NCBI RefSeq assembly: GCF_036173125.1
Contig: NZ_CP108054.1
Location: forward strand, 1,674,001 to 1,738,000
Source of the DNA: Streptomyces sp. NBC_00286
GTDB lineage: Bacteria; Actinomycetota; Actinomycetes; Streptomycetales; Streptomycetaceae
Reading direction: 5' to 3'
Length of the DNA: 64,000 nt
In this document: positions 11,481 through 46,086 of the stretch, one piece after another
How the letters are laid out: each line of letters starts with the position of its first letter
Numbering within the stretch: position 1 is the first letter of the stretch
The notes under the pieces: model-generated
Seen by the model: only the letters and a program-made list of their open reading frames with translations
Databases searched by the model: none
What the model was told of the DNA's origin: nothing
Made by a program: the position numbers and the translations under genes

Positions 11481-12983
11481 ATGTCGTTATCCACCGGCGA
11501 ACCCACCAGCATTCCGCACGAGTCAGGACCTTCGTCCCCGCGGTCCTCGCGGCGGTGGTGGGCGCTGGCCGTGATCGCTCTGGCCCAGCTGATGATCATG
11601 CTGGACGCCACCATCGTGAACATCGCGCTGCCGTCCGCACAGGCCGACCTGGGCTTCTCCGACAACGACAGGCAGTGGATCGTCACCGCCTACGCACTCA
11701 CCTTCGGCAGCTTGCTGCTGATCGGGGGGCGTATCGCCGATCTCTTCGGCCGCAAGGAGACCTTCCTCGCGGGTGTCGTCGGTTTCGCCGCCGCCTCGGT
11801 GCTCGGCGGAGCCGCCGGCAACTTCGAACTCCTGGTGCTGGCCAGAGCGCTCCAGGGTGTCTCGGGTGCCCTGTTGGCGCCGGCGGCTCTCTCTCTGCTG
11901 ACGACCATCTTCACCGACGTCAAGGAACGGGGCCGGGCCTTCGCGATCTTCGGTGCCATCGCGGGCGCCGGCGGGGCGCTCGGCAATCTGCTCGGCGGCG
12001 TGCTGACCGAGTACCTCAACTGGCGTTGGACCCTCTACATCAACCTGGCGTTCGCGGCGGCGGCGTTCCTGGGCGGTCTGCTGCTGATCGAGCGTCAGCC
12101 CCGGGCGGCCCAACGCGCCAAGCTCGACGTCCCCGGCGCGGTGCTGGTCACCCTGGGACTCTTCGGCCTGGTGTACGGGTTCTCCAACGCCGAGTCGCAC
12201 GGGTGGGGTTCTCCCGCCAGCTGGGGTCTGCTGGTCGGGGGTCTCGCCCTGCTCGCCCTCTTCACGTACTGGCAGTCGACGACGGACCGGCCGCTGCTAC
12301 CCCTGCGCATCCTCCTCGACAGGGACCGGGGAGCCTCGCAGATCGCCATTCTGGTCGCCACCGGAGGCATGTACGCGGTCGCGTTGTTCCTCGCCTACTA
12401 CATGCAGCAGACGCTCAAGTACACCCCGGTCGAGGCGGGGCTCGCCTTCCTGCCCATCCCGGTCGCCCTGGTCGTTGCCTCCGGCCTGGCCGTGGGGGTC
12501 CTAATGCCCCGGGTGGGGCCGAAGATCGTGATTCCCCTCGGGATGGCGCTGCTGGGCGTGGGCATGGTCTGGTTCACCCGCCTGGAGCTGGACAGCACTT
12601 ACGTCGGAGGCATTCTGCCGCCGCTGGTCGTCCTGGGCCTCGGTCTCGGCATGGTCTATGCGCCGGCGATCGACCTGGCCACCTACCGGGTGCACGAGGA
12701 CGACTCCGGTGTGGCCTCTGCGGCGGTCAACACCACGCAGCAGATCGGTGGTTCGCTGGGGATCGCCATCCTCAACACGCTCGCGGCGAGCGCCGCGGGC
12801 AGCTATCTCAGCAGCCGGCAGGCCACGCCCGAGGTGGTCGCCGAGGCGGCGTTGCACAGCTACTCCACCGCGTACTGGTGGGCAGCCGGCCTCGCAGCCG
12901 TCGGCCTCGTCGTGACCTTCCTGCTGTACCGCCCCGGCGTTCGGGAAAAGTCCCCCGACGCGGCGAAGACCGTCGCCATGTGA
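11481..12983 (+). CDS. MFS drug exporter, DHA2 (EmrB/QacA) family
   Basis: A 500-aa protein with about 14 hydrophobic segments, the usual length and topology for DHA2 exporters. Visible signatures are LMIMLDATIVNIALP in helix 1 (motif D1), GGRIADLFGRKE (motif A, about residues 77-88), RALQGVSGALLAPAAL and GAIAGAGGALGNLLGGVL (antiporter motif C region). It probably uses the proton gradient to export a drug or an endogenous metabolite. It sits behind the palindromic operator at 11433-11452 and ahead of a long hairpin at 13022-13083, so it is likely a single-gene transcript. Position between two biosynthetic blocks fits a self-resistance role for either product; this is inference. Confidence 0.93.
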   Translation: MSLSTGEPTSIPHESGPSSPRSSRRWWALAVIALAQLMIMLDATIVNIALPSAQADLGFSDNDRQWIVTAYALTFGSLLLIGGRIADLFGRKETFLAGVVGFAAASVLGGAAGNFELLVLARALQGVSGALLAPAALSLLTTIFTDVKERGRAFAIFGAIAGAGGALGNLLGGVLTEYLNWRWTLYINLAFAAAAFLGGLLLIERQPRAAQRAKLDVPGAVLVTLGLFGLVYGFSNAESHGWGSPASWGLLVGGLALLALFTYWQSTTDRPLLPLRILLDRDRGASQIAILVATGGMYAVALFLAYYMQQTLKYTPVEAGLAFLPIPVALVVASGLAVGVLMPRVGPKIVIPLGMALLGVGMVWFTRLELDSTYVGGILPPLVVLGLGLGMVYAPAIDLATYRVHEDDSGVASAAVNTTQQIGGSLGIAILNTLAASAAGSYLSSRQATPEVVAEAALHSYSTAYWWAAGLAAVGLVVTFLLYRPGVREKSPDAAKTVAM

Positions 12984-13820: not shown

Positions 13821-14897
13821 ATGACAACCGTGCGCCGCTCACTAGGTGTTCCGCCATTCTTTTGCCCATTACCCGACGTTGTGTACGACAAGCCGGATGA
13901 AATAGATGCCGGCGCTGTTGCCTGGATGTTTCGGCAAGGTTTTCGCAAGGAGGGTGACTGGCTGCCGAAAATGAAGGCGGGTTCGTACACCGCACACTGC
14001 ATGCCATATGTCCTCGACCGGTGCGCCGAGATCATCACCTATGTCATGTACTGGGGCGGTGCCTGGGACGACGACCTCGACGTGATCCCAGGGCTGGACC
14101 AGCCCGCACCTCTGACCGTCCACGTCAGCCGCCTCAAGCACATCCTCGCCTCGCCCAAGTCCGTCGTGCCGCCCGGGGATCCGTACCTCTCCTCCTTCCA
14201 GGACTTTTGGAAGCACATCTCCGCCGTGTCGACACCGGGCCAACTTGAGCATCTGCGCCAGGGTTTCTGCAGCTATTTCGACGGTGTGCTGTGGAAATGC
14301 GCGAACCAGAGTCTCGGTGAACTCCCCGAACTGGGGGATTACCTGATCATGCGAGGCAACGATGTGGCCGGCCCCTGGCTGACCGCACTCACTCCGATCG
14401 GCGGCGGATACGAACTGACCGCAGCCGAACGTCTCGATCCCCGAGTGCGCGCGGCGTCCGAAGCCGTGTCCGTCATCGTCGGTCTCGACAACGACCTGAT
14501 CTCAATTCATCGGGAGAATCTGCAAGGCTTGTTCGACCAGAACGCCATCAGCATCGTGGTGCGCGACCAGCAATGCACACCCGAGGAAGCGGTCGCCGAA
14601 GTCCGCGCGCTGCGTGACCGAATCATGTCCGTGTACCTGCGTCTGCGCGACGAGGTCTCCGCGACCGCCCGCCCGGAACTGAGGCGCTACGTCCACGAGA
14701 TCGGCTACTGGATTCGCGGTCACATCATCTGGGCGGACTTCACCACCCGTTACTGCGCGCCCGTCGACCCGGAGACCGGCGAAGAACAGAACTTCGGCGG
14801 CTACGGCCTGGTCTGGGCGGACGAGCCCGCTGACGACGACCCCGCGCCCCTGCCGATTCCACAGATCGCCTGGTGGTGGGACCAGCTGGAGGGCTGA
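13821..14897 (+). CDS. Class I terpene synthase (terpene cyclase)
   Basis: A 358-aa single alpha-domain terpene cyclase, the usual bacterial length. The metal-binding motifs are intact: the Asp-rich motif D83-D84-D85-L86-D87 (DDxxD), the NSE triad N224-D225-x-x-S228-x-x-x-E232, and the C-terminal R310-Y311 diphosphate sensor. The enzyme ionises a prenyl diphosphate and cyclises the cation in the cytosol. A polyprenyl diphosphate synthase three genes down makes GGPP (diterpene) a reasonable substrate, but FPP cannot be excluded. The start has AAGGGAG seven bases upstream. It is followed 63 bp later by a P450 and probably forms an operon with it. Confidence 0.93.
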   Translation: MTTVRRSLGVPPFFCPLPDVVYDKPDEIDAGAVAWMFRQGFRKEGDWLPKMKAGSYTAHCMPYVLDRCAEIITYVMYWGGAWDDDLDVIPGLDQPAPLTVHVSRLKHILASPKSVVPPGDPYLSSFQDFWKHISAVSTPGQLEHLRQGFCSYFDGVLWKCANQSLGELPELGDYLIMRGNDVAGPWLTALTPIGGGYELTAAERLDPRVRAASEAVSVIVGLDNDLISIHRENLQGLFDQNAISIVVRDQQCTPEEAVAEVRALRDRIMSVYLRLRDEVSATARPELRRYVHEIGYWIRGHIIWADFTTRYCAPVDPETGEEQNFGGYGLVWADEPADDDPAPLPIPQIAWWWDQLEG

Positions 14898-14960
14898 CAG
14901 CGGCAACACAGAGCCCGACAGGTCCGCACAACCCTCAACAACCGCATGGAGGTTCGTTCC

Positions 14961-16355
14961 ATGACAGGCCAGGCAACCCGCGGCTATACGAAAGGCACCG
15001 CACCCAGCGCGCTGCCCGTGCTCGGGCACGCACACCGATTACGCAGCGACCCGCTCAGCTTCCTCCGGTCGCTGCCCGAGCAGGGCGACCTCGTGAAGAT
15101 CATGGTGGGGCCGACCCCCATGTACATCGCGTGCCACCCCGATCTCGTCCACGAGATGCTGACCGACAAGGTCAAGGACTTCGTCAAGGGCGGTCCCGTG
15201 ATGGACCGCGTGCGCACGGTGCTCGGAGACGGTCTCGTCACCGTCGACGGCCTCGTCCATCGCAAGCAGCGGCGTCTGATCCAGCCCTCCTTCCACCCCG
15301 CGCGCATCGCCGAGTACGTCGGCATCATGCAGAAGCAGGCAGCAGCGTCGGCTCATGAATGGCCCGCGGGCGAAAACGTCGACCTCCTGCTGCAGATGGG
15401 CAACCTCAGCGCCGACGTGGCGCTGAGCTGCCTGTTCTCCGAGCCCGGCGAGGGCGAGGTGCGCCGGGGCGGCCACCACGGTCTCCCGACAGCACTGAAC
15501 ACCGTGATCGACGGCATGTTCTTCCGCATGCTCAACCCGCTGCCGGCCCTGTCCTCCCTGCCCACCCCCGGCAACCAGCGCTACAAGCGGGCGGAGGCGC
15601 AGCTGCACCAGGTGGTGAACGAGACCATCGATCGCTACCGCCATTCGGGCGACGGCGGCGGTCTGCTGCGCACGATGATGACCGAGGTCGACGCGGACGG
15701 ACACCGCTTCACTGACCAGGAACTGCACGACCAGTCCATCACCTTGCTCCTCGGGGGCGCGGAGACCACCGCCGTCCTGATGTCGTGGATCTTCCACCTG
15801 CTGCACGAGAACCCGCAGGTCACCGCCAAGCTGCACGCGGAACTCGACGAGGTGCTGGCCGGCCGCCCGGTGACGGCCGAGGACCTGAGGAAGCTGCCGT
15901 ACACCCGCAACGTCGTCGCCGAGGGGCTGCGCCTCTACCCGCCGGCCTGGCTGCTCAGCCGTCGCGCCGCCGTCGACACCACGCTCGGCGGGCTGCCCGT
16001 ACCGGCCGGCACTGAGCTGTCGTACAGCCCCTTCCTGCTGAACCGGGACGCCCGCTACTTCGACGCCCCCGACAGCTTCGAGCCGGACCGGTGGCTCACC
16101 ATGTCGACCACCGCGCGCAAGGGCGACGCCTACCTGCCCTTCGGCGCCGGGAACCGCAAGTGCATCGGTGACGTGTTCGCCCTCACCGAGGCCCAAGTCA
16201 TCGTGGCCACCGTGGCCCAGTACTGGAAGCTGGACCGCGCCCCGGGCACCCGCCCCACGCGCGCCCTCGTGCGCATGAGCCTGCGTCCCGACCAGTTCAC
16301 GGTCGTGCCGACCCGACGGCAGCCGGCGCGCGAGCCGCAGGCCGCAGCGAGCTGA
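14961..16355 (+). CDS. Cytochrome P450
   Basis: A 464-aa P450. The I-helix oxygen-activation motif GGAETTA, the ExxR pair in EGLR and the heme-binding loop FGAGNRKCIGD with Cys401 are all present. The start chosen is 14961: the in-frame ATG at 14946 lies inside the Shine-Dalgarno sequence (GGAGG, 14948-14952) that serves 14961. Overall it resembles the longer, eukaryote-like bacterial P450s that oxidise terpenes (CYP170/CYP183 type). It directly follows the cyclase and probably oxidises its hydrocarbon product. No ferredoxin or reductase gene is nearby, so electrons must come from proteins encoded elsewhere. Confidence 0.93.
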   Translation: MTGQATRGYTKGTAPSALPVLGHAHRLRSDPLSFLRSLPEQGDLVKIMVGPTPMYIACHPDLVHEMLTDKVKDFVKGGPVMDRVRTVLGDGLVTVDGLVHRKQRRLIQPSFHPARIAEYVGIMQKQAAASAHEWPAGENVDLLLQMGNLSADVALSCLFSEPGEGEVRRGGHHGLPTALNTVIDGMFFRMLNPLPALSSLPTPGNQRYKRAEAQLHQVVNETIDRYRHSGDGGGLLRTMMTEVDADGHRFTDQELHDQSITLLLGGAETTAVLMSWIFHLLHENPQVTAKLHAELDEVLAGRPVTAEDLRKLPYTRNVVAEGLRLYPPAWLLSRRAAVDTTLGGLPVPAGTELSYSPFLLNRDARYFDAPDSFEPDRWLTMSTTARKGDAYLPFGAGNRKCIGDVFALTEAQVIVATVAQYWKLDRAPGTRPTRALVRMSLRPDQFTVVPTRRQPAREPQAAAS

Positions 16356-16372
16356 ACCCGTTCCGTTCGACC

Positions 16373-16414
16373 GACAGGGGCCCGGCAGGTCCTGCACCCG
16401 CGGCCGCCCCTGTC
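16373..16414 (+). terminator. Stem-loop after the P450
   Basis: GACAGGGGC (16373-16381) pairs with GCCCCTGTC (16406-16414) over a 24-nt loop that has a small inner hairpin, starting 18 bp after the P450 stop. It may separate cyclase-P450 from the GGPP synthase transcript. The remaining 240 bp to the next start show nothing else clear. Confidence 0.5.
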
Positions 16415-16653
16415 CGGCCTGCCCTCCGACATGTGAACGCACGTGTGCGGAGGGCCGGCCATCCGGCGCGGTCCGAACATCCCGTCACCGCTCGCCGCTC
16501 CATCGGTGACTCGCACCCGCGGCGCGGCCCGTCGACTGCCGGGACCCTCCTCCGCCCGGCCGGAAAGTGATGCCTCTCTTCGGCGGTTTCCCTCCCGTGT
16601 CACGCCCTCACTGACGCGGCCCACACGGTCTTGACGAACAGGAGCAACGACAC

Positions 16654-17736
16654 ATGAGCCCCACCACCAGCCTTCGCGAGCTGGGAGCCGACGCCCTGGA
16701 CTCGGTTCATCTGCGCGGCCTGATCGATGAGCGACTGAACGCCTTCCTCGACGGCAAGTGCCTCAAGGACACGGATGTCCACCTGGTCTCGCTCATCGAG
16801 CACCTGCGTGGCTTCCTGACCGCGGGCGGCAAGCGCATACGGCCGCTCCTGTGCATGGTGGGCTGGCACGCGGCGCGCGGATACGGCGAAACGGAGCCCG
16901 TCATCGGCGCGGCGGCCTCGCTCGAACTCTTCCACGCCTTCACCCTCATCCACGACGACGTGATGGACGCCTCCGACACTCGGCGCGGCCGTCCGACCCT
17001 CCACCGCGCGCTGGAGACGGGGGCGAACGGCACGACCGCCGAGCGGTTCGGCACCAACAGCGCGATCCTGCTCGGCGACCTGGTCATGGTGTGGTCGGAC
17101 GAGCTGCTGTACTCCAGCGGTCTCGACCAGCAGCAACTGGTCGCCGTCCGACCGCTGTTGGACGCCATGCGAACCGAGGTGATGATCGGCCAGTACTGGG
17201 ACCTGCTGGCCACCGGACAGCCCACCGCGGACGTCGAACGGTCGCTGGCCGTGATCCGCTACAAGACGGCCAAATACACCGTGGAGCGGCCGCTGCACAT
17301 CGGCGCGGCCCTCGCCGGAGCGGACCAGTCCCTGCTGGACGTCTGCACCGCCTACGCCCTGCCGATCGGAGAAGCCTTCCAACTGCGGGACGACCTCCTC
17401 GGCGTCTTCGGCGACCCGGCCAAGACCGGCAAGTCGACTTTGGACGACCTGCGGGAGGGCAAGGCGACAGCCCTGATGGCACACGCCCTCCACGCCGCCG
17501 ACCCCGAGCAGGCGCGCGTGCTGAAGTCCCTCGTCGGCGACCCGGACTTGGACGAAGCGGACGCCGAGACGGTCCGCGGAATACTGCGGGCCACGGGAGC
17601 CGCCGACAAGGTCGAGCAGATGATCACCGACCGGGTGCAGCGTGGCCGGCGGGTCCTGGACGAGGCCCCGTTCCCGGACGAGGTCAGGAAGACCCTCGAC
17701 ACCTTCGTCGCCACCACAACGTTCAGGACCACCTGA
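16654..17736 (+). CDS. Polyprenyl diphosphate synthase, probably geranylgeranyl diphosphate synthase
   Basis: A 360-aa trans-prenyltransferase. The first Asp-rich motif is D101-D102-V-M-D105 (LIHDDVMDASDTRRGRPT) and the second is QLRDDLLGVFGD, the DDxxG variant common in actinobacterial GGPP synthases. GGKRIRP near residue 58 binds the IPP diphosphate. It condenses IPP with allylic diphosphates in the cytosol to feed the terpene cyclase. Product length is inferred from family resemblance and context, not proven. CAGGAG precedes the start. It has its own 298-bp leader, and the mevalonate kinase follows after 236 bp that hold no recognisable gene. Confidence 0.88.
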   Translation: MSPTTSLRELGADALDSVHLRGLIDERLNAFLDGKCLKDTDVHLVSLIEHLRGFLTAGGKRIRPLLCMVGWHAARGYGETEPVIGAAASLELFHAFTLIHDDVMDASDTRRGRPTLHRALETGANGTTAERFGTNSAILLGDLVMVWSDELLYSSGLDQQQLVAVRPLLDAMRTEVMIGQYWDLLATGQPTADVERSLAVIRYKTAKYTVERPLHIGAALAGADQSLLDVCTAYALPIGEAFQLRDDLLGVFGDPAKTGKSTLDDLREGKATALMAHALHAADPEQARVLKSLVGDPDLDEADAETVRGILRATGAADKVEQMITDRVQRGRRVLDEAPFPDEVRKTLDTFVATTTFRTT

Positions 17737-17972
17737 ACCCGCTGCCGAGGGCGACCGGAGGAGAACCGACCCGGCATCCGCCACGGAATCGGTTCGCGAG
17801 CACGCACCGGCGGTGCGGTTCGACGCTCTGATTCACCCCGTGCGGTGGCGTTGCTCGTGCCCGCGGCCGCGACCACCGGCCGCGGTGCCCATGGGTGACC
17901 GAAGCATGACGCGACACGCGGTCGAACGGGCCTATTTCATTCCTTCCTAGAAACCTGGATGACGCGATCTCA

Positions 17973-19004
17973 ATGGAATTTCGACAAAGGGAGCTGCGCA
18001 CGCCGACTCCACCGGCCCCGGTGGGGGGGACGGCTGAATGTCGCCACGCTCGCTCGGTCGGCACCGGCCGCGCCCACGCCAAGTCCATTTTGCTGGGGGA
18101 GCACGCGGTCGTGTACGGAGCCCCGGCACTCGCCCTGCCCGTTCCGCAGCTGTCGATCACCGCCAGCGCCGGGTTCTCCACCCGTGGCGGAGAGCCGACC
18201 GGTGTGTCCTTCACGATGACCGGATCCGCCTGGAAGCAGGTCGGAACGCAGGCCTCCGAGGGACTGCGCCGGCTGACCACCGATTTCAGGGCGTCCATGG
18301 GCCTCAACGACGGCCGACACCTCGACGTGATCATCGACGGTTCGATCCCGCTCGGCAGGGGGCTCGGCTCCAGCGCGGCCTGCGCCCGTGCCGTCGTCCT
18401 CGCCCTGGGCGACCTCTGCGGCCGCGAGGTCTCGCAGCGGATGACGTTCGACCTGGTGCAAACCTCCGAGAACGTGATGCACGGCAAGGCCAGCGGTGTC
18501 GACGCCGTCACCGTCGGCGCGAGCGCCCCGTTGCTGTTCCAGGCGGGCGAGGCCCGCACGCTGCGTGTCGGTTGGGACGCGCTGTTCATCATCGCGGACA
18601 GCGGCGTCGTCGGCAGCACCAGAGAAGCGGCCGACATGCTACGGGAGAGGTTCCGACTTCACGCCGGAACACAGGAGAGGTTCGTACGCCGGGCGTCGGA
18701 ACTCACCGGCGAGGCCGTGACCACCCTCGCCGCCGGCAAGCCGGAGGAGCTCGGCTCCCTGCTGACGGAGTACCACGGACTGCTCCGTGAGGCCGGGCTG
18801 AGCACCGACCGGATCGAGGCGATGGTGGATGCCGCGCTCGCCGCGGGCAGCCTCGGCGCCAAGATCACCGGCGGCGGACTGGGCGGCTGCGTCCTCGCAC
18901 TGACCCAGCCGGAGCAGGCCGGAGAGGTCACCCGGCGGCTGCACGAAGCCGGAGCCGTGCAGACGTGGATCGTCCCGCTGAGGAGGCTCGTCAGCCATGT
19001 CTGA
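17973..19004 (+). CDS. Mevalonate kinase
   Basis: A 343-aa GHMP kinase that phosphorylates mevalonate to 5-phosphomevalonate. Three GHMP motifs are visible: GRAHAKSILLGEHAVVYG near residue 31, PLGRGLGSSAA near residue 127 and KITGGGLGGC near residue 293. The N-terminus MEFRQREL resembles the known Streptomyces mevalonate kinases, supporting the start at 17973. It is the first gene of an unbroken mevalonate operon whose order (MK, MDD, PMK, IDI-2, HMGR, HMGS) is the one described in Streptomyces sp. CL190. The stop overlaps the next start by 8 bp. Confidence 0.95.
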   Translation: MEFRQRELRTPTPPAPVGGTAECRHARSVGTGRAHAKSILLGEHAVVYGAPALALPVPQLSITASAGFSTRGGEPTGVSFTMTGSAWKQVGTQASEGLRRLTTDFRASMGLNDGRHLDVIIDGSIPLGRGLGSSAACARAVVLALGDLCGREVSQRMTFDLVQTSENVMHGKASGVDAVTVGASAPLLFQAGEARTLRVGWDALFIIADSGVVGSTREAADMLRERFRLHAGTQERFVRRASELTGEAVTTLAAGKPEELGSLLTEYHGLLREAGLSTDRIEAMVDAALAAGSLGAKITGGGLGGCVLALTQPEQAGEVTRRLHEAGAVQTWIVPLRRLVSHV

Positions 19005-20049
19005 GCAGCAGACCACCGTGCTCCACCCGCAGGAACAGCCCGGCGCGCACGGGGCCACCGCCGTCGCGCACCCGAACATCGCGCTGATCAAGTACTGGGG
19101 GAAGCGTGACGAGCGCCTCTTCCTCCCTTGGACCAGCAGCCTGTCGATGACCCTGGACATCTTCCCCACGACCACCCGTGTCCACCTGGATGCCGAGGCC
19201 ACGGACGACGAAGTGACCTTAGACGGCGCACCCGCGACGGGCGAGGAACGGCGGCGCATCGCCGGATTCCTCGACCTGGTGCGCGAGCGGGCCGGGCTCA
19301 CGCACCAGGCCGTCGTCGACACCCGCAACACCGTACCCACCGGGGCGGGCCTGGCGTCCTCCGCCAGCGGGTTCGCCGCGCTCGCCGTCGCCGCCGCCAC
19401 CGCGTACGGACTGGACCTCGACGACACCGGCCTCTCCCGCCTGGCCCGCCGCGGCTCCGGCTCGGCCTCGCGGTCGATCTTCGGCGGCTTCGCCGTATGG
19501 AACGCCGGCACCCACACGGCGCCGCCCGCGGAGGCGGACCTCAGCTCCTACGCCGAGCCGGTACCCGCGGGCGACCTCGACCCCGCACTGGTCATCGCGG
19601 TGGTCAACGCCGGCCCCAAGGAGGTGTCCAGCCGCGCGGCCATGCGCCGCACCGTCGAGACCTCACCCCTGTTCGAGCCCTGGGCCGCGTCGAGCCGGGA
19701 CGACCTGACCGAGATGAGGCAGGCGCTCCTGCGCGGCGACCTCGACGCGGTGGGCGAGATCGCGGAGCGCAACTCGCTCGGCATGCACGCGACCATGCTG
19801 GGCGCGCGCCCCGCGGTGCGCTACCTCGCGCCCGCCTCGCTCACCGTCCTCGACAGTGTGCTGCAGCTGCGGCGCGACGGCATATCGGCCTACGTGACCA
19901 TGGACGCCGGACCGAACGTCAAGGTGCTCTGCCGTCGCACGGACGCCGACCGGGTCGCCGAGGCCGTGCGCGGCGCCGCCGCGGGCGCCACCGTGCACAT
20001 CGCCGGGCCGGGGCGGGGCGCCCGCCTGGTGGACGAGGACGGACGATGA
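18997..20049 (+). CDS. mvaD: Diphosphomevalonate decarboxylase
   Basis: A 350-aa GHMP-fold enzyme that converts 5-diphosphomevalonate to IPP using ATP. Signatures: AHPNIALIKYWGKRDERLFLP near residue 24, which is diagnostic for MDD, and TGAGLASSASGFAAL near residue 112 for the phosphate loop. Starts 8 bp inside the mevalonate kinase gene and overlaps the phosphomevalonate kinase start by ATGA, so translation of the three kinases is coupled. Confidence 0.95.
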   Translation: MSEQQTTVLHPQEQPGAHGATAVAHPNIALIKYWGKRDERLFLPWTSSLSMTLDIFPTTTRVHLDAEATDDEVTLDGAPATGEERRRIAGFLDLVRERAGLTHQAVVDTRNTVPTGAGLASSASGFAALAVAAATAYGLDLDDTGLSRLARRGSGSASRSIFGGFAVWNAGTHTAPPAEADLSSYAEPVPAGDLDPALVIAVVNAGPKEVSSRAAMRRTVETSPLFEPWAASSRDDLTEMRQALLRGDLDAVGEIAERNSLGMHATMLGARPAVRYLAPASLTVLDSVLQLRRDGISAYVTMDAGPNVKVLCRRTDADRVAEAVRGAAAGATVHIAGPGRGARLVDEDGR

Positions 20050-21173
20050 CCTCCGGGCAAACGGTCGTCCGCACCGCACCCGGCAAGCTGTTCGTCGCGG
20101 GTGAGTACGCGGTGGTGGAACCCGGTACCCCGGCCGTCCTGGTGGCCGTGGACCGGGAGATCACCGTCACGGTGACCCGCTCCGACGCGCCCGATGTCGT
20201 GATCTCCTCCGATCTCGTCGCCCGAGCGGTGAACTGGCGATGGCTCGACGGCCGGCTCCACGGTCCCGGCACGAAGAACGGGGAACCCGACGAGAACGGC
20301 GCGCGCGGCGCACTGGCGCACGTGGTGTCGGCGGTCGAGACCGTGGGACGGCTGCTGGCCGAACGCGGCCTGCCCCTGCCCGGGTTGGACATCTCGATCA
20401 GCAGCCGGCTGCATGACAACGGCCGCAAGTACGGCCTGGGATCGAGCGGTGCGGTGACCGTGGCCACCATCGACGCCGTCACGTCCCTGTGCGGCCTCGA
20501 CCTCTCACTCGACGCCCGGTACCGCCTGGCCGTGATCTCCTCGGCCGGGATCGACCCCAAGGGCTCCGGCGGTGACCTTGCCGCCAGTACATGGGGCGGC
20601 TGGATCGCGTACCAGGCACCCGACCGGGACTTCGTGCTCAACCTCACCCGCCGCCACGGCATCGAGGAAGGGCTGCGCACACCCTGGCCGGGTCACTCGG
20701 TCCGAAGGCTTCCGGCCCCACGCGGCCTCACGCTCGAAGTCGGCTGGACCGGCAACCCGGCCTCCACCACCTCGCTCGTGTCCAATCTGCACCGCCGGAC
20801 CTGGCGCGGCACCGCGTCGCACCGCACGTTCGTGGAGACCTCCACCGACTTCGTACGCGCCTCGATCACCGCCCTTGAGGCCGGCGACGGCCAAGGCCTG
20901 CTGCGGCAGATCCGCCGTGCCCGGCAGGATCTGGCCCGCCTCGACGACGAAGTCGGGCTCGGCATCTTCACACCCGAGCTGACAGCACTGTGCGCGGCCG
21001 CCGAAACCGTCGGCGGCGCCGCGAAGCCGTCGGGCGCGGGCGGCGGCGACTGCGGCATCGCCCTGCTCGACGCCGAAGCCACGCACGACATCTCTCACGT
21101 ACGGCAGCGGTGGGCCGCGGCCGGGGTGCTGCCCCTGCCCGTACGGCCCGCTCCGGAAGGAATCGAGAAATGA
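20046..21173 (+). CDS. Phosphomevalonate kinase
   Basis: A 375-aa GHMP kinase that phosphorylates 5-phosphomevalonate. Visible motifs are APGKLFVAGEYAVVEPG (residues 11-27), KYGLGSSGAVTVATIDA (about 127-143) and KPSGAGGGDCGIAL near the C-terminus. The frame is open far upstream through the decarboxylase gene, but the ATG at 20046, in an ATGA overlap with the decarboxylase stop, gives the family's normal N-terminus. Its stop overlaps the isomerase ATG. Confidence 0.94.
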   Translation: MTSGQTVVRTAPGKLFVAGEYAVVEPGTPAVLVAVDREITVTVTRSDAPDVVISSDLVARAVNWRWLDGRLHGPGTKNGEPDENGARGALAHVVSAVETVGRLLAERGLPLPGLDISISSRLHDNGRKYGLGSSGAVTVATIDAVTSLCGLDLSLDARYRLAVISSAGIDPKGSGGDLAASTWGGWIAYQAPDRDFVLNLTRRHGIEEGLRTPWPGHSVRRLPAPRGLTLEVGWTGNPASTTSLVSNLHRRTWRGTASHRTFVETSTDFVRASITALEAGDGQGLLRQIRRARQDLARLDDEVGLGIFTPELTALCAAAETVGGAAKPSGAGGGDCGIALLDAEATHDISHVRQRWAAAGVLPLPVRPAPEGIEK

Positions 21174-22261
21174 GCACTCAGCGCAAGGACGACCACGTCC
21201 GGCTCGCCATGGAGCAACATGACACCCGCAGCGGGATCAACCAGTTCGACGAGGTGTCCTTCGTCCACCACGCCCTGGCCGGCATCGACCGGCCGCAGGT
21301 GTCCCTGGCCACGACCTTCGCCGGAATCTCCTGGCAGGTGCCGCTCTACATCAACGCGATGACCGGCGGTACCACCAAGACCGGCGTCATCAACAGGGGT
21401 CTGGCGATAGCCGCCCGCGAGACCGGGGTGCCCATCGCGTCGGGCTCCGTGCACGCCTACTTGAAGGACCCGACGTGTGCCGACACCTTCCGCGTCCTGC
21501 GCCAGGAGAACCCCCACGGGTTCGTCATGGCCAATGTGAACGCGACGGCATCGGTCGCCGACACACAGCGTGCCCTTGATCTGCTGGAGGCCGACGCCCT
21601 GCAGATCCACGTCAACACGGCGCAGGAAACAGCCATGCCGGAGGGCGACCGGTCCTTCGGGTCCTGGGTCTCGCAGATCGAGAAGATCACGGCGGCTGTC
21701 GACGTGCCCGTGATCGTCAAGGAGGTCGGCAACGGCCTGAGCCGGGAAACCATCCTGACGCTGCGACAACTGGGTGTCCGCGTGGCGGACGTCGGCGGCC
21801 GGGGCGGCACCGACTTCGCCCGCATCGAGAACGGCCGGCGCCCACTCGGCGACTACGCGTTCCTCCACGACTGGGGCCAGTCCACCGCCGCCTGCCTCCT
21901 GGACGCGCAGGGCGCCGGTCTCCCCGTGCTCGCCTCCGGCGGCGTCCGCCATCCCCTCGACGCCGCCCGCGCCCTGGCCTTGGGTGCCTCCGGCGTCGGG
22001 GCCTCCGGAGTGTTCCTGCGCACCCTGCTCGACGGCGGTCCCGAGGCGTTGATCGCGCAGATCACGAACTGGCTGGACCAGCTCGCGGCCCTGCAGACCA
22101 TGCTCGGCGCGCGCGCCCCCGCCGACCTCGCGAGCAACGACCTGATCATCCACGGCACCCTCCGTTCCTTCTGCGCCGACCGGGGCATCGACACGGGGCT
22201 ACTCGCCCGGCGTTCCCGATCGGCCGACGTCCTCCACGATTCGACGGGAAGAACACGATGA
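21170..22261 (+). CDS. fni: Type II isopentenyl-diphosphate isomerase (FMN-dependent)
   Basis: A 363-aa TIM-barrel flavoprotein that interconverts IPP and DMAPP, using FMN and NADPH. Characteristic stretches are INQFDEVSFVHHALAG, PLYINAMTGG, HVNTAQETAMPEGDR and ADVGGRGGTDFARIEN, with the FMN phosphate site GASGVGASGVF. The start ATG at 21170 overlaps the upstream stop, and the end overlaps HMG-CoA reductase by ATGA. The open frame extends further upstream within the kinase gene, but that part is not isomerase-like. Confidence 0.95.
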   Translation: MSTQRKDDHVRLAMEQHDTRSGINQFDEVSFVHHALAGIDRPQVSLATTFAGISWQVPLYINAMTGGTTKTGVINRGLAIAARETGVPIASGSVHAYLKDPTCADTFRVLRQENPHGFVMANVNATASVADTQRALDLLEADALQIHVNTAQETAMPEGDRSFGSWVSQIEKITAAVDVPVIVKEVGNGLSRETILTLRQLGVRVADVGGRGGTDFARIENGRRPLGDYAFLHDWGQSTAACLLDAQGAGLPVLASGGVRHPLDAARALALGASGVGASGVFLRTLLDGGPEALIAQITNWLDQLAALQTMLGARAPADLASNDLIIHGTLRSFCADRGIDTGLLARRSRSADVLHDSTGRTR

Positions 22262-23319
22262 CCGAAACGCACGCCATTGCCAGGGTCCCCATGAAATGGG
22301 TCGGGCCCCTTCGCATCTCCGGGAACGTTGCCAACATCGACACCCACGTCCCCCTCGCCACCTACGAGACGCCGCTGTGGCCCTCCGTGGGCCGTGGCGC
22401 GAAGGTGTCCATGCTCGCGGAGGAGGGCATCGTCGCCACCCTTGTCGATGAGCGCATGACCCGCTCGGTGCTCGTCGAGGCGACCGACGCCCAGACCGCG
22501 TACACGGCCGCCCGCGCCATCGAGGCGCGGATCGAGGAACTGCGCGCCGTGGTCCGCACGTGCAGCCGGTTCGCCGAGCTGCTCACCGTCCGACACGAGA
22601 TCGCGGGCAACCTGCTGTTCATCCGGTTCGAGTTCAGCACCGGCGACGCCTCCGGCCACAACATGGCCACGCTCGCCTCCGACACCCTTCTGACGCACCT
22701 CCTGCAGACCATTCCGGGAATCTCCTACGGATCGATCTCCGGGAACTACTGCACGGACAAGAAGGCAACCGCGATCAACGGCATCCTCGGCCGCGGAAAG
22801 AACGTGGTCACGGAACTGCTCGTCCCGCGCGCCGTGGTGGAAGGCGTCCTGCACACCACTGCCGCCAAGATCGTCCAACTGAACATCCGCAAGAACCTGC
22901 TCGGGACCCTGCTGGCCGGCGGCATCCGCTCGGCCAACGCCCACTACGCCAACATGCTGCTCGGGTTCTACCTGGCCACAGGCCAGGACGCGGCCAACAT
23001 CGTCGAGGGCTCCCAGGGCGTCACCCTGGCAGAGGACCGCGACGGCGACCTCTACTTCTCCTGCAACCTGCCCAACCTGATCGTTGGCACCGTGGGCAAC
23101 GGCAAGGGCCTGGAGTTCGTGGAGACGAACCTGACCCGCCTCGGCTGCCGCGATGACCGCGCCCCCGGCGAGAACGCGCGCCGGCTCGCCGTCATCGCGG
23201 CGGCGACGGTCCTCTGCGGCGAGCTCTCGCTGCTCGCGGCACAGACCAACCCGGGCGAACTCATGCGTGCGCACGTCGAACTGGAGCGCGACAACAAGAC
23301 AGCAAAGGTCGGTGCCTGA
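22258..23319 (+). CDS. Hydroxymethylglutaryl-CoA reductase
   Basis: A 353-aa HMG-CoA reductase, the length typical of streptomycete enzymes without a membrane anchor. It reduces HMG-CoA to mevalonate with NAD(P)H in the cytosol. Substrate and cofactor motifs include SMLAEEGIVATLVDERMTRS, NYCTDKKATAINGILGRGK (the Lys and Asn region), FYLATGQDAANIVEGSQG with the catalytic Asp, and LPNLIVGTVGNGKGLE. The start overlaps the isomerase stop by ATGA and HMG-CoA synthase begins 2 bp after the stop. Confidence 0.95.
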   Translation: MTETHAIARVPMKWVGPLRISGNVANIDTHVPLATYETPLWPSVGRGAKVSMLAEEGIVATLVDERMTRSVLVEATDAQTAYTAARAIEARIEELRAVVRTCSRFAELLTVRHEIAGNLLFIRFEFSTGDASGHNMATLASDTLLTHLLQTIPGISYGSISGNYCTDKKATAINGILGRGKNVVTELLVPRAVVEGVLHTTAAKIVQLNIRKNLLGTLLAGGIRSANAHYANMLLGFYLATGQDAANIVEGSQGVTLAEDRDGDLYFSCNLPNLIVGTVGNGKGLEFVETNLTRLGCRDDRAPGENARRLAVIAAATVLCGELSLLAAQTNPGELMRAHVELERDNKTAKVGA

Positions 23320-23321
23320 GT

Positions 23322-24497
23322 ATGTCCAGCGACTCTTCCTTCGGAATCCACGATCTGTCGTTCGCGACGACCGAGTACGTCCTGTCGCACGCGACACTCG
23401 CCGAGTGCAACGGCACTGACATCGGCAAGTACCACATCGGCATCGGCCAGCGGTCGATGAGCGTCCCCGCCGCGGACGAGGACATCGTGACGCTGGGCGC
23501 CGCCGCTGCCGCCCCGATCATTGCCCGGCACGGTTCCGAACGGATCCGTACGGTGGTCTTCGCGACGGAATCCTCGATCGACCAGGCGAAGGCCGCTGGC
23601 GTGTACGTGCATTCACTGCTCGGCATGCCATCGGCCTGCCGGGTCGTCGAGCTGAAGCAGGCCTGCTACGGAGCCACGGCCGCCCTGCAGTTCGCCATCG
23701 GGCTCGTGCGGCGCGACCCCGACCAACAGGTCCTCGTGATCGCGAGCGACGTCTCCAGGTACGAACTGGACAGCCCCGGCGAGGCGACCCAGGGCGCCGC
23801 CGCGGTGGCGATGCTGGTCAGCGCCGACCCCGCCCTGATCCGCATCGAGAACGCCTCGGGCCTGTTCACCGCCGACGTCATGGACTTCTGGCGACCGAAC
23901 TACCTCACCACCGCCCTGGTCGACGGGCAGGAATCGGTCCAGGCGTACCTGCAAGCGGTCACAGGCAGCTGGAAGGACTACGGCGAGCAGGGCGGCCGCG
24001 CACTCGACGAGTTCGCAGCGTTCTGCTACCACCAACCGTTCACGAAAATGGCCTACAAGGCACATCGTCATCTGCTCAACTACGCGGGCCACGAAACGGA
24101 CGAGACCGCCATCGAGCACGCCATCGGGCAGACCGTGGCCTACAACACCTCCATCGGCAACAGCTACACCGCCTCGGTGTACCTCGCTCTCGCCGCGCTG
24201 CTCGACCAGACGGACGACCTGGCCGACCGGCCCATCGGCTTCCTCAGCTACGGCTCCGGGAGCGTCGCCGAGTTCTTCGCGGGCACAGCCGTCCCCGGCT
24301 ACCGCGAACACCTGCGGACCGAAGCGAACCTGGAGGCGATAGCCCGGCGCAAGCCGGTCGATTACGCCCGCTACCGCGAGCTGCACGAGCGGTCCTTCCC
24401 GGCCGACGGAGGAGACCACCCCACCCCGCAGCAGACCACCGGGCCCTTCCGCCTGGCCGGCATCAGCGGTCACAAGCGCATCTACCAGGCGCGCTAG
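23322..24497 (+). CDS. Hydroxymethylglutaryl-CoA synthase
   Basis: A 391-aa thiolase-fold enzyme joining acetyl-CoA and acetoacetyl-CoA into HMG-CoA. The catalytic Glu lies in FATESSIDQAKAAG, the nucleophilic Cys in VVELKQACYGATAAL and the His in CYHQPFTKMAYKAH. It completes the mevalonate pathway in this operon. A strong hairpin at 24515-24550 separates it from the acetoacetyl-CoA synthase gene. Confidence 0.95.
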   Translation: MSSDSSFGIHDLSFATTEYVLSHATLAECNGTDIGKYHIGIGQRSMSVPAADEDIVTLGAAAAAPIIARHGSERIRTVVFATESSIDQAKAAGVYVHSLLGMPSACRVVELKQACYGATAALQFAIGLVRRDPDQQVLVIASDVSRYELDSPGEATQGAAAVAMLVSADPALIRIENASGLFTADVMDFWRPNYLTTALVDGQESVQAYLQAVTGSWKDYGEQGGRALDEFAAFCYHQPFTKMAYKAHRHLLNYAGHETDETAIEHAIGQTVAYNTSIGNSYTASVYLALAALLDQTDDLADRPIGFLSYGSGSVAEFFAGTAVPGYREHLRTEANLEAIARRKPVDYARYRELHERSFPADGGDHPTPQQTTGPFRLAGISGHKRIYQAR

Positions 24498-24514
24498 AAC
24501 ACCTGCGGTCCCAG

Positions 24515-24550
24515 GCGTGCGGGGCAGCCTCCACGGCTGCCCCCGCACGC
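24515..24550 (+). terminator. Hairpin between HMG-CoA synthase and the NphT7-like gene
   Basis: GCGTGCGGGGCAGCC (24515-24529) pairs with 24535-24550 over a 5-nt loop, with one bulged C. It starts 17 bp after the synthase stop. It could be a partial terminator that lowers or separates expression of the last gene. Confidence 0.55.
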
Positions 24551-24618
24551 GCCCGTTACGGCCGCACGCCAGTTCTTCACACACCGTTCTCCATACCACT
24601 CGAGGGGAGGGCAGCCGC

Positions 24619-25599
24619 ATGACCGACGTGACGATCCTCGGTACGGGTGCCTATGTGCCGGAGCGAATCGTGTCCAATGACGAGGTCGCCGCGGCGGCGG
24701 GGGTCGACGACGCGTGGATCACCGGCAAGACCGGCATCCGGGAACGGCGATGGGCTGCCGACGGCCAGGCCACCTCGGACCTGGCCACCGCCGCGGGGCG
24801 TGCCGCGCTGCGGTCGGCCGGCCTCACCGCCGAGGACCTGTCCGTGATCGTGGTCGCCACATCCACACCCGACCGGCCGCAACCGCCCACCGCCGCCTAC
24901 GTCCAGCAGCGGCTCGGCGCGATCGGCGCGGCCGCGTACGACGTCAACGCGGTCTGCTCCGGCACGGTGTTCGCGCTCTCCGCGGCCGAGGGCGTACTCA
25001 CCCGCACCGGCGGCCACGCACTGGTCATCGGAGCGGACCTGTACTCCCGCATCCTGAACCGGGCCGACCGCAGGACCGTGATCCTGTTCGGGGACGGCGC
25101 CGGAGCGGTGGTCATGGGGCCGTCGGTCGACCACGGACCACGTATCCGGCACCTCGCGCTGCACTCGTTCGGCGAACTGTCGGGTCTCATCGAGGTGCCC
25201 GCCGGCGGCAGCCGCATGCCCGTGGACCAGACAGTCCTCGACGCGGGGCTTCATTACTTCGCGATGGACGGGCGAGGCGTGCGGAACTTCGTCGGTGACC
25301 ACCTGCCGCAACTGGTCAAGGGATTCCTGCACGAATGCGGTGTCGTACCCGACGACGTCGACCACTTTGTACCGCACCAGGCCAACGGCACCATGCTGGA
25401 CACCGTCTTCGCCGACTTGGAACTGCCTCGCGCGACCATGCACCGCACACTGACGTACTACGCCAACACGGGAGCCGCCTCCATCCCCATCACCCTGGAC
25501 GCGGCCGCCCGTGCGGGCGCCTTTACCCCCGGCGACCTGATCCTCATCGCCGGCTTCGGCGGCGGCATGTCGGCGGGATTCGCGCTGGTTGAGTGGTGA
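24619..25599 (+). CDS. nphT7: Acetoacetyl-CoA synthase, NphT7-like (KAS III family)
   Basis: A 326-aa KAS III-fold protein. From memory it matches Streptomyces NphT7 closely along its full length (GTGAYVPERIVSNDEV, WITGKTGIRERRWAADGQ, ATSTPDRPQPPTAAYVQQ, FGGGMSAGFALVEW). NphT7 condenses acetyl-CoA with malonyl-CoA to acetoacetyl-CoA irreversibly. The catalytic residues are Cys113 in NAVCSGTVFA, His in VPHQANGTMLD and Asn in YANTGAAS. The ATG at 24619, with GAGGGGAGG upstream, gives the NphT7-like N-terminus. Here it supplies HMG-CoA synthase and replaces a reversible thiolase. A fatty-acid role is less likely given the sequence and context. Confidence 0.93.
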   Translation: MTDVTILGTGAYVPERIVSNDEVAAAAGVDDAWITGKTGIRERRWAADGQATSDLATAAGRAALRSAGLTAEDLSVIVVATSTPDRPQPPTAAYVQQRLGAIGAAAYDVNAVCSGTVFALSAAEGVLTRTGGHALVIGADLYSRILNRADRRTVILFGDGAGAVVMGPSVDHGPRIRHLALHSFGELSGLIEVPAGGSRMPVDQTVLDAGLHYFAMDGRGVRNFVGDHLPQLVKGFLHECGVVPDDVDHFVPHQANGTMLDTVFADLELPRATMHRTLTYYANTGAASIPITLDAAARAGAFTPGDLILIAGFGGGMSAGFALVEW

Positions 25600-25919
25600 G
25601 AGAACCCAGGCCGGTGGGTTGGTGGGTGGGTGTCTGCGTGAGAGAGGTACCCAAGGGCAGGTGACAGCATCTGCCTGACGAGTGCGACTCGCGGTCGGTC
25701 CCGGTCCGGTCCCGTGGCCAGTCCGACGACGTACCTCGGCACTTTGATCCGCCCCGGCTCCGACGCCCGGGGGCGGAGGACCGACTCTCGGCACGGTCTG
25801 GTCGGACTGCTCGGTGGGTCGGAGTCCGGACTCCGACCCACCGAAGGGACGACTACTCCCGGCCCCCCTCATCGGCTCGGCGTATCCGATCCGCTCAGCC
25901 TTCCTGCGGATGCCACCGC
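25600..25919. other. Non-coding gap closing the terpene/mevalonate locus
   Basis: About 320 bp with no credible gene on either strand. It starts with a GT/GGTGG-rich stretch (25610-25632) and contains the 34-bp palindrome at 25811-25844. Its boundary role, between convergent transcripts, is inferred. Confidence 0.5.
25811..25844. terminator. 34-bp perfect palindrome, bidirectional terminator
   Basis: TCGGTGGGTCGGAGTCC (25811-25827) is followed without spacer by its exact reverse complement (25828-25844). It lies between the mevalonate operon and the convergent XRE gene and would terminate both transcripts. No T-run flanks it. Confidence 0.75.
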
Positions 25920-26435: not shown

Positions 26436-26810
26436 ATGGCTGGGCCCGCTCAGCAACCAAATACGATGTCGTCCCTGCGCCCTCGGGGTGAGAGCACGGC
26501 CTCCTCTGCCGAGGAAGAGCCCGCCCTGGAGGGCGGCAAGGCCCACTCCGGGCTGACACTCGCGGTGCCCGACGCGGCACCGGTGCTCACTCCGCTTGCC
26601 GCTACAGCCCTGCTGCGTCTCCTGCGAAAGGCTCACCGCCGCACAACGGACGCCAGCCGCCCCGAACCAGCAAGGGACAGCCATCCGTCGCCCACGGAGA
26701 GGAAAGCGGCGTGCCCACAGCGTTCGCCTTCGCCGGCCGGGTCTCGACCGAAGACCAGCAAGACCTGGAAGCCTCACGCAACTGGCAGTTCACCCGCGCC
26801 CAAGCACTGA
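26436..26810 (+). CDS. Hypothetical small protein before the recombinase
   Basis: A possible 124-aa product. Only the middle (APVLTPLAATALLRLLRKAHR, about residues 48-68) looks protein-like, as an amphipathic helix. Small ORFs with a similar Leu-rich helix often precede recombinase genes in actinomycete elements. The C-terminal part overlaps the recombinase by 100 bp in another frame and is Pro/Ser/Lys-rich, so the real gene may be shorter or absent. The SD is weak. Confidence 0.3.
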   Translation: MAGPAQQPNTMSSLRPRGESTASSAEEEPALEGGKAHSGLTLAVPDAAPVLTPLAATALLRLLRKAHRRTTDASRPEPARDSHPSPTERKAACPQRSPSPAGSRPKTSKTWKPHATGSSPAPKH

Positions 26811-28411
26811 TCGAGCCGCACGGCGTCATCGTCGCCGAGTACTTCGACGTCGGCCAGTCCCGCTCGATCCCATGGCAGCGTCGGCCCCGAGCCGCGGCGC
26901 TCCTCGAAGCATTGAAGCAACCGCACCGCGGCTTCGACGCGGTGGTCATCGGCGAACCGCAACGGGCCTTCTACGGCAACCAGTACGGACTGATCTTCCC
27001 GCTCTTCGTTCACTACGGAGTGCGGCTCTGGGTGCCTGAGGTCGGCGGCCCGATCGATCCGGAATCCGAAGCCCACGACCTGGTGATGTCGGTCTTCGGC
27101 GGCATGAGCAAGGGGGAACGCAACCGGATCAAGATCCGGGTCCGCGCCGCCATGGCCGCCCAGGCCAAGATCGAAGGACGCTACCTGGGCGGGAGACCGC
27201 CCTACGGTTACCGGCTCGCCGACGTCGGACCCCACCCGAACCCGGCCAAGGCCGCCGACGGCAAGCGCCTGCACCGACTGGAACCGGACCCCGCCACCGC
27301 GCACGTCGTCCAGCGCATCTTCCGCGACTACTGCTCCGGGCGCGGGCTGTTCGCCATTGCCGAGTCCCTGACCCGCGACGGCATCCCGAGCCCGGCCGCG
27401 CACGACCCGGGGCGCAACCGGCACCGCTGCGGCGTCGCCTGGTCCAAGGGGGCCGTCCGCGCGATCCTGTCCAACCCCCGCTACACCGGACGGCAGGTCT
27501 GGAACAAGCAGCACAAGGAAGAGATCCTCCTCGACGTCGACAACGTGGCCCTCGGACACGAGACCCGGCTGCGCTGGAACCGGCCGGATGCCTGGATCTG
27601 GTCCACCGACCAGGCCCACCCGCCGCTGATCGACACCGAGACCTTCGAGCACGCCCAGGACCTGCTGGCAGGCAAGGGCGCTGGCCGTACGACCCGCGAG
27701 CGGCAACGCACCAGCCACCCGTACGTCGTGCGTGGGCTGCTGCACTGCGGGATCTGCGGGCGACGCATGCAGGGCCAGCGCAGCCGCGACGTCCTGTACT
27801 ACCGCTGCCGCTTCCCCAACGAATACGCGCTCGCCAACAAGGTCTCCCACCCGCGCAACGTCTACCTGGCAGAGCGGGACCTGATCCCCTCGCTGGACAC
27901 CTGGCTCGCGCGAGCCTTCGCCCCGCACCGCCTGCACGACGCCATCACCCGCATGCACGCGGCCCAGCCCGACCCCGCCCCCGCGCCGGAGGCCGAGGAC
28001 GCGATGCGCGTGATCGCCGAATGCGACGCGAGGATCGCCCGCTACCGCGAAGCCCTAGAGGCGGGCACCGACCCGAAACTCATCGCCCAGTGGACCGCCG
28101 AGACCCAGGCCCACCGCGCCCAGGCCCTCGCCCGGACCCGCAGGCCCACCGGCGAGCATCACCTCAGCAAGGAGGTCATCCACGCGATGATCACATCACT
28201 CGGCAGCATCCGGGACGTACTCGCCGACGCCGAACCACAGGACAAGGCCGACGTCTACCAGAACCTCGGGCTCAAGCTCACCTACGAACCCGGAAAACAG
28301 CTTGTGCGGGCCGAGGCTCGCCTCGACCCGCACAAGTTGGGGATACGGTCTGTGTCCGAGGGGGGACTTGAACCCCCACGCCCGATAAAGGGCACTAGCA
28401 CCTCAAGCTAG
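26711..28411 (+). CDS. Large serine recombinase (integrase), frame ends in tRNA-Leu
   Basis: A 566-aa serine recombinase. The resolvase domain begins FAFAGRVSTEDQQD with the nucleophile Ser12, and GGMSKGERNRIKIRVRAAM marks the E-helix. The recombinase domain follows (GRYLGGRPPYGYRL), then a zinc-ribbon (CGICGRRMQGQ) and a C-terminal coiled region (about residues 430-500). It would cut and rejoin attachment sites to integrate or excise an element. The last 20 or so codons (SVSEGGLEPPRPIKGTSTSS) are antisense to tRNA-Leu, so the C-terminus is created by the attachment-site junction. Expression is probably held down by the divergent XRE protein. Confidence 0.93.
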   Translation: MPTAFAFAGRVSTEDQQDLEASRNWQFTRAQALIEPHGVIVAEYFDVGQSRSIPWQRRPRAAALLEALKQPHRGFDAVVIGEPQRAFYGNQYGLIFPLFVHYGVRLWVPEVGGPIDPESEAHDLVMSVFGGMSKGERNRIKIRVRAAMAAQAKIEGRYLGGRPPYGYRLADVGPHPNPAKAADGKRLHRLEPDPATAHVVQRIFRDYCSGRGLFAIAESLTRDGIPSPAAHDPGRNRHRCGVAWSKGAVRAILSNPRYTGRQVWNKQHKEEILLDVDNVALGHETRLRWNRPDAWIWSTDQAHPPLIDTETFEHAQDLLAGKGAGRTTRERQRTSHPYVVRGLLHCGICGRRMQGQRSRDVLYYRCRFPNEYALANKVSHPRNVYLAERDLIPSLDTWLARAFAPHRLHDAITRMHAAQPDPAPAPEAEDAMRVIAECDARIARYREALEAGTDPKLIAQWTAETQAHRAQALARTRRPTGEHHLSKEVIHAMITSLGSIRDVLADAEPQDKADVYQNLGLKLTYEPGKQLVRAEARLDPHKLGIRSVSEGGLEPPRPIKGTSTSS

Positions 28412-34190: not shown

Positions 34191-34200
34191 GGTGCCCGCC

Positions 34201-35478: not shown

Positions 35479-35481
35479 TTG

Positions 35482-37626: not shown

Positions 37627-37743
37627 GCTGAGCGACGGCCCGAACCACGGGGCCTGCGGTGACCGCTCGCCGCGGGCCCCTGCGCGAAGAGAACGGACAG
37701 GGGGCGCTGGCCAGACTTCTTCCACGCGAAGGGTTCGATCGAC

Positions 37744-41769: not shown

Positions 41770-41772
41770 GGG

Positions 41773-45960: not shown

Positions 45961-46086
45961 GGTCAGCCTCCTTGTCATACGCGAACCAGACGGGCCGTAC
46001 GCAAACCAAACGGCCGTACAGAACCGGAGATGAGAAGAACAGGAAAGACGGCGGGCGGGGGTCCGGCGTCCCCCGCCCGCCGCCGC

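Follow-up and report, generated by a model that had tools for sequence, protein, structure and literature searches.

A 64,000-nucleotide stretch of Streptomyces sp. NBC_00286 (the window; bases 1,674,001–1,738,000 of a 9.85-Mb single-contig genome) carries, at positions 13821–25599, ten genes on the forward strand whose frames are all open according to the list of open reading frames (ORFs) and to profile scans. We think it probable that these genes form a two-part terpenoid cluster, in which a supply block yielding geranylgeranyl diphosphate (GGPP) feeds a divergent payload of one class I terpene cyclase and one cytochrome P450, the predicted product being an oxidised diterpene. Of most interest in the locus is its modular supply block, near-identical copies of which stand beside another payload in two other species.

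A supply block shared with clusters of another payload

The supply block comprises a prenyl synthase, six mevalonate genes and an NphT7-like ketosynthase. The window is ~93% identical in DNA to genome G152 over positions 16560–25618, a length of 9.06 kb that runs from the prenyl synthase through the NphT7-like gene, and 91–92% identical to genome G238 over positions 16584–25604. Identity drops to background ~70–94 bp 5' of the prenyl synthase start and 5–19 bp past the ketosynthase stop, and an intergenic piece at ~17740–17940 is not common with G152 or G238. Next to the block, G152 encodes a class II enzyme that resembles squalene cyclases and has a DSDD motif, a class I synthase without significant similarity to the window cyclase, and a P450 that is 42% identical to the window P450, with an alpha/beta hydrolase farther out. 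The pair recurs in G238, where the class II enzyme is 90% and the class I enzyme 94% identical to its G152 counterpart, and the P450 of G238 is 41% identical to that of the window.

The housekeeping region of dxr is 82% identical between the window genome and G152, 78% in G238 and 75% in the strain LS1784 (genome G567). The higher identity of the block (91–93% in G152 and G238) than of the dxr region (78–82%) suggests that the block passed between species in one piece, although the use of a single housekeeping marker weighs against this conclusion. LS1784 belongs to another genus in the genome grouping used here but to Streptomyces in the NCBI taxonomy. Its match also ends at 25618, while the 5' side runs on through the P450 and the cyclase and extends at ~90% to the genes of a major facilitator superfamily (MFS) transporter and a TetR regulator; cyclase, P450 and prenyl synthase are kept at 90–95%. 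The simplest reading of this pattern would be an exchange of the whole cluster between the lineage of NBC_00286 and LS1784. A tree of five mevalonate blocks is nearly star-shaped and favours neither payload as the earlier one.

Sharply bounded and combined with different payloads across species, such a supply block would be a natural plug-in precursor supply, and its sharing helps one to guess the substrate of cyclases that cannot be assigned from their sequence. Tentatively, one may go further and propose that the cyclase is the first member of a subfamily whose diterpene skeleton is undescribed, and that the block acts as a mobile GGPP supply unit, neutral towards its payload, which terpene clusters take up whole and re-pair with unrelated cyclases, even across genera; we regard this wider proposal as possible rather than probable.

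The terpene cyclase and the P450

The cyclase passes the Terpene_syn_C_2 profile (115 bits, Pfam cut-off 23.7) and contains the metal motifs D83-D84-D85-L86-D87 and N224-D225-LI-S228-IHR-E232, as well as R178 and the R310-Y311 pair. The catalytic meaning that we give to the motifs of the cyclase, the P450 and the ketosynthase is the one usual in their families. None of the NCBIfam product models reaches its cut-off for the cyclase, the best being that of selina-4(15),7(11)-diene synthase (SdS; NF041565, 195 bits against 450), which is passed by two of ten scanned cyclase relatives with 659 and 667 bits. The best solved relatives, by PDB match, are variants of a reconstructed ancestor of spiroviolene synthase (SvS), with which the cyclase shares a near full-length alignment and the Asp-rich, NSE and RY motifs. 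Nevertheless, the cyclase is unlike SvS and SdS: identity to 6TJZ, a variant of SvS-A2, is 33% (114 of 342 positions), and the scores against five SvS-A2 variants are 173–180 bits, compared with 441–452 bits for L019, a close relative of SvS-A2. An assignment as spiroviolene synthase was rejected on these figures.

Relatives of the cyclase were sought in 392 genomes of the genus, with five candidates scored per genome, and in 394 genomes of the family, a draw that overlaps the genus sample and in which matches at E <= 1e-60 or better are considered. In the genus sample, 124 genomes hold relatives at E <= 1e-20 (own included), the best of which, the own genome aside, are 36% identical (G262, G083 and G108). 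Two of the 394 family genomes gave matches, namely the own genome and LS1784, the latter at 95%, and a search of genome contigs returned two loci only, one in LS1784 and one, 28% identical, in Actinomadura. In a phylogeny of 36 cyclases the copies from the window and from LS1784 form a branch of their own, which ~2 changes per column separate from the nearest other group, and their joining to L004 was flagged as possible long-branch attraction. An AlphaFold2 model built from a three-sequence alignment had a mean predicted local distance difference test (pLDDT) score of 49 and was set aside.

By these comparisons the cyclase is new among the genomes searched, its 95% identical LS1784 copy aside. 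Since no enzyme of known product that is closely related to the cyclase turned up in the genomes and models searched, the locus is a promising candidate for a new terpene. Judged by its sequence, the locus is intact and a good target for genome mining, a tractable ten-gene cluster that may be the source of such a compound.

The P450 carries an ExxR motif (EGLR), an AETT motif in the I-helix and the haem loop FGAGNRKCIG. Relatives at E <= 1e-90 occur in 97 of 246 genomes (own included) with identities of 37–46%, which is too distant for the P450 to serve as a guide to the product. The scanned cluster genes included no ferredoxin or reductase that could serve the P450, nor did the 298-bp gap that follows it contain a convincing ORF for a ferredoxin.

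Mevalonate genes and NphT7-like ketosynthase

The genes of mevalonate kinase (MK), diphosphomevalonate decarboxylase (MDD), phosphomevalonate kinase (PMK), type 2 isopentenyl diphosphate isomerase (IDI2), 3-hydroxy-3-methylglutaryl-CoA (HMG-CoA) reductase (HMGR) and HMG-CoA synthase (HMGS) follow each other in this order, which we take to be the CL190 order. PMK was scanned only within a longer ORF (19128–21173) with GHMP kinase domains and owes its name to the gene position and to a plasmid block, 85% identical, in which the homologue is annotated. For HMGR, the NCBIfam NADPH model stays below its cut-off (292 against 442). The start of IDI2 is more likely at 21170, since the profile matches the listed ORF (20990–22261) from residue 64 onwards, and that of the NphT7-like gene more likely at 24619 (ATG), since there the family match sets in near residue 35 of the ORF as listed.

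Read from 24619, the ketosynthase contains Cys113, His253 and Asn283, presumably the Cys-His-Asn catalytic triad of the family; the fabH model TIGR00747 falls slightly below its cut-off (282 against 292). Its identity is 91% to the copy in G152, 89% in G238 and 88% in LS1784. When the 26 regions around HMGS genes were tallied for ketosynthase matches over 200 amino acids (aa), 19 cassette regions besides those of G152 and G238 had a match, 16 of them at 55–79% and three (L087, L088 and L090, from two genomes) at ~34%. A match of this length was absent in five of the 26 regions (L072, L074, L077, L081 and L089), in the first of which the contig ends inside the gene. Two other ketosynthases III of the own genome (E <= 1e-20) are 32–33% identical to the NphT7-like enzyme. 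Within the window, a second ketosynthase III (60130–61068, reverse strand) is ~32–35% identical to it. With its triad and an apparent orthology to cassette ketosynthases, judged by identity without a tree, the enzyme can be placed as NphT7-type, and would then use malonyl-CoA rather than malonyl-ACP.

Layout of the locus

The features of the locus are collected in Table 1. Profile scans confirm what an earlier note on this DNA had proposed from the letters alone, that a cyclase, a P450 and a polyprenyl synthase accompany all mevalonate genes and an NphT7-like ketosynthase; the genes are directly joined, as claimed, with gaps of 298 bp between P450 and prenyl synthase and of 236 bp between prenyl synthase and MK. 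The term self-sufficient went too far, given the lack of redox partner genes described above and the presence of dxr, of the methylerythritol phosphate (MEP) route, in the same genome. Streptomyces clusters with mevalonate genes beside the MEP route are mentioned in the part of PMC13001223 available to us. As a whole, the earlier interpretation stands for the mevalonate set, the NphT7-like entry and a payload other than that of meroterpenoid clusters, and needs change for self-sufficiency; nor is the architecture in itself unusual for terpenoid clusters of bacteria. A characterised enzyme highly identical to the cyclase, which the note had named as contrary evidence, did not turn up in the genomes, models and structures searched.

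Table 1 Genes and other features of the terpenoid locus, in window positions.
Feature	Position	Strand	Basis
Class I terpene cyclase, 358 aa	13821..14897	+	Terpene_syn_C_2, metal motifs
Cytochrome P450, 469 aa	14946..16355	+	P450 261 bits, ExxR, haem motif
Short-chain trans-polyprenyl diphosphate synthase, 360 aa, probably GGPP synthase	16654..17736	+	polyprenyl_synt 194 bits, first Asp-rich motif (FARM) DDVMD
MK	17973..19004	+	TIGR00549 225 bits, cut-off 163
MDD	18997..20049	+	TIGR01240 312 bits, cut-off 171
PMK	20046..21173	+	GHMP kinase domains, position, annotated homologue
IDI2	21170..22261	+	TIGR02151 382 bits, cut-off 281
HMGR	22258..23319	+	PF00368 272 bits
HMGS	23322..24497	+	TIGR01835 533 bits, cut-off 360
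NphT7-like ketosynthase III (putative acetoacetyl-CoA synthase), 326 aa	24619..25599	+	PRK09352 317 bits, cut-off 249, Cys113-His253-Asn283
Supply block, 91–93% identical to two clusters with another payload, sharp ends	16560..25618	+	
MFS transporter upstream, possible exporter	11481..12983	+	Kept beside the cluster in LS1784 (91% aa)

Proposed pathway, substrate and alternative readings

From the gene content we infer the following catalytic steps. Supply would start from acetyl-CoA and malonyl-CoA, which the NphT7-like enzyme would convert to acetoacetyl-CoA; HMGS and HMGR would lead on to mevalonate, MK, PMK and MDD to isopentenyl diphosphate (IPP), and IDI2 to dimethylallyl diphosphate (DMAPP). 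The prenyl synthase would join IPP and DMAPP, most likely to GGPP, the diphosphate of which the cyclase would ionise via its Asp-rich and NSE metal motifs, folding a cyclic diterpene. The P450 may then oxidise this diterpene with a ferredoxin system encoded elsewhere. In other species the same supply block would be used with an unrelated pair of class II and class I diterpene synthases.

That the prenyl synthase most likely makes GGPP is suggested by its copies in G152 and G238, which are 91–92% identical (the three enzymes compared) and serve the class II and class I pair; such pairs act on GGPP in mevalonate-linked clusters, according to the available portions of PMC3790952 and PMC9814783. 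Its best PDB match is named GGPP synthase (269 bits), the next one farnesyl diphosphate (FPP) synthase (199 bits). Before the FARM, at −5 and −4, the window, LS1784 and G238 have F and T, and G152 has F and A; chain length was also sought from these residues, which proved indecisive.

Several observations weigh against GGPP. The NCBIfam GGPP and FPP models are both below cut-off for the prenyl synthase, the PDB enzyme named FPP synthase is likewise aromatic (W) at −5, and the next solved relative of the cyclase after the SvS variants is 4okm, which we take to be SdS, a sesquiterpene cyclase. Furthermore, the cyclase has Val220 at the position of Ala224 of SvS-A2, a switch between FPP and GGPP that is Ile in sesquiterpene cyclases, and thus leans to FPP, whereas its Tyr152 matches the W156Y variant, which is GGPP-specific (PMC8023661, in the part accessible to us). 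These hints conflict, and the specificity residues were discarded as a guide to the substrate. The choice between FPP and GGPP had been left open when the locus was first noted; it is the shared supply block that points to GGPP, and a C20 product is moderately favoured over a C15 one.

The same cluster could instead work on FPP, its prenyl synthase giving FPP, its cyclase making a sesquiterpene and its P450 oxidising it, as in the pha cluster of like gene content, which makes sesquiterpenes according to the portion of PMC12860625 at hand. The selinadiene synthase model, the best for the cyclase, would fit this, as would Val220 and the best NCBIfam models for the P450, albaflavenone monooxygenase and pentalenene oxygenase, both below cut-off. 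We nevertheless consider a sesquiterpene unlikely, though it is the strongest of the alternatives, as the near-identical prenyl synthase occurs in class II and class I clusters of two species and the best solved cyclase relative, the SvS ancestor, prefers GGPP (PMC8023661, same part).

It is hardly to be expected that the mevalonate block serves some other product, such as that of the hybrid polyketide synthase–non-ribosomal peptide synthetase (PKS-NRPS) encoded upstream at 43–8850, with cyclase and P450 being incidental. In half of the genomes that encode such an HMGS (13 of 26, coordinates compared by eye), an aromatic prenyltransferase (PF11468) does lie within 50 kb on the same contig. However, PF11468 has no match at E <= 0.001 anywhere in the own genome, other prenyltransferase families not having been searched, and the order of cyclase, P450, prenyl synthase and mevalonate genes is kept in LS1784, grouped in a different genus. 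An aromatic-prenyltransferase payload was rejected on the PF11468 result, which also bears out the earlier statement that the payload differs from that of meroterpenoid clusters. A decaying or silent locus without product is equally improbable: no pathway regulator was seen among the scanned cluster genes and a resolvase-family protein is encoded 1.1 kb downstream, yet the frames are all open, the motifs are present and the first three genes are conserved in LS1784, as given above. The diterpene reading, with GGPP supplied by the shared block, remains the one that we prefer.

Occurrence of the component genes

Among the 392 genus genomes, 26 (own included) encode an HMGS like that of the window at E <= 1e-60, and seven of these have a class I terpene synthase within ~10 kb of it (G000, which is the own genome, G288, G353, G284, G083, G152 and G238). 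For G152 and G238 the profile matches only weakly (32 bits, cut-off 24), and the count of seven may be too low because of contig ends, for example in G050 and G081. Given these seven genomes and the published clusters, terpenoid clusters that contain a mevalonate cassette are an established type. The mevalonate part also matches plasmid blocks at 78.5–85.3% in 15 of 16 plasmid records, the sixteenth matching in the prenyl synthase only.

A prenyl synthase at 53–59% identity is encoded in five additional genomes (of 394, E <= 1e-110). In L120, L121 and L122, which are among these regions, the prenyl synthase (54–58%) stands beside a cyclase relative (27–31%), and L122 also has a P450 at 41%; the three would be further unassigned clusters of this broad family. 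No mevalonate genes were found in the 20-kb regions around the five prenyl synthases, so that a prenyl synthase with a cyclase of the broad family also occurs without the mevalonate part.

Surrounding genes

The hybrid PKS-NRPS, on the forward strand, has KS-AT-ACP, luciferase-like monooxygenase, condensation and adenylation domains; its first domain seems to be cut by the window start, and it is probably a separate cluster. A TetR regulator at 9024–9599 (reverse strand) lies upstream of the MFS gene, and both may travel with the terpene cluster, as they are ~90% identical in DNA beside the cluster in LS1784. The resolvase/recombinase-family protein past the cluster (26711–28411, forward strand) lies outside the shared block, since the LS1784 and G152 matches end before it, at 25618. 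Farther downstream, genes for a thiamine-diphosphate enzyme, a CoA-transferase III and an acyl-CoA ligase in a row, followed by an MFS gene (32505–39132, forward strand), might, as a guess, be a catabolic set of oxalate/formyl-CoA type. Genes at 40597–45978 (reverse strand) for an EboA-domain protein, an inositol-1-phosphate-synthase-like protein and two xylose-isomerase-like proteins resemble a metabolite-traffic (ebo-like) set.

Comparison with known systems

Diterpene synthases and a GGPP synthase near mevalonate genes, as proposed here, are described for terpentecin (Kitasatospora, tpn/Cyc1-Cyc2) and viguiepinol (Streptomyces sp. KO-3988); Cyc1 and SsCPS were found through their closeness to mevalonate genes (PMC3790952), and the tpn cluster has two P450s and a ferredoxin (PMC9814783). 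By these partial descriptions the window is set apart by its single class I cyclase and one P450. Neither a class II DxDD cyclase nor a ferredoxin gene was seen among the scanned cluster genes of the window, whereas G152 and G238 have a DxDD-type enzyme. DtcycA and DtcycB, the cembrane cyclases, are likewise single class I diterpene cyclases beside GGPP synthase genes, for which the part of PMC3790952 compared here mentions no mevalonate block.

The pha cluster of Streptomyces phaeochromogenes OSK-123 (2026) has, as far as the available text of PMC12860625 goes, a terpene synthase, a P450, a prenyl synthase, mevalonate genes and a 3-oxoacyl-ACP synthase like the window, but differs in two prenyl synthases and two protoporphyrinogen/coproporphyrinogen-oxidase-like enzymes. 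Its gene content is resembled by L085 (G353), in which we saw two prenyl synthases, a terpene synthase with 23% identity to that of the window, a pair of amine-oxidase-like flavoproteins, mevalonate genes and a ketosynthase III, and no P450 among the genes scanned.

The mevalonate part follows a known Streptomyces order: mpz11-16 of a Streptomyces prenylated-phenazine cluster are the same six genes in the same order (PMC4044012, seen in part). Unlike the window, mpz has an aromatic prenylation payload and, in that text, no acetoacetyl-CoA synthase gene, while the window block includes the prenyl synthase and the NphT7-like gene. A mevalonate-supplied terpene cluster, in many cases with P450s, is an established kind, with terpentecin, viguiepinol and pha as precedents.

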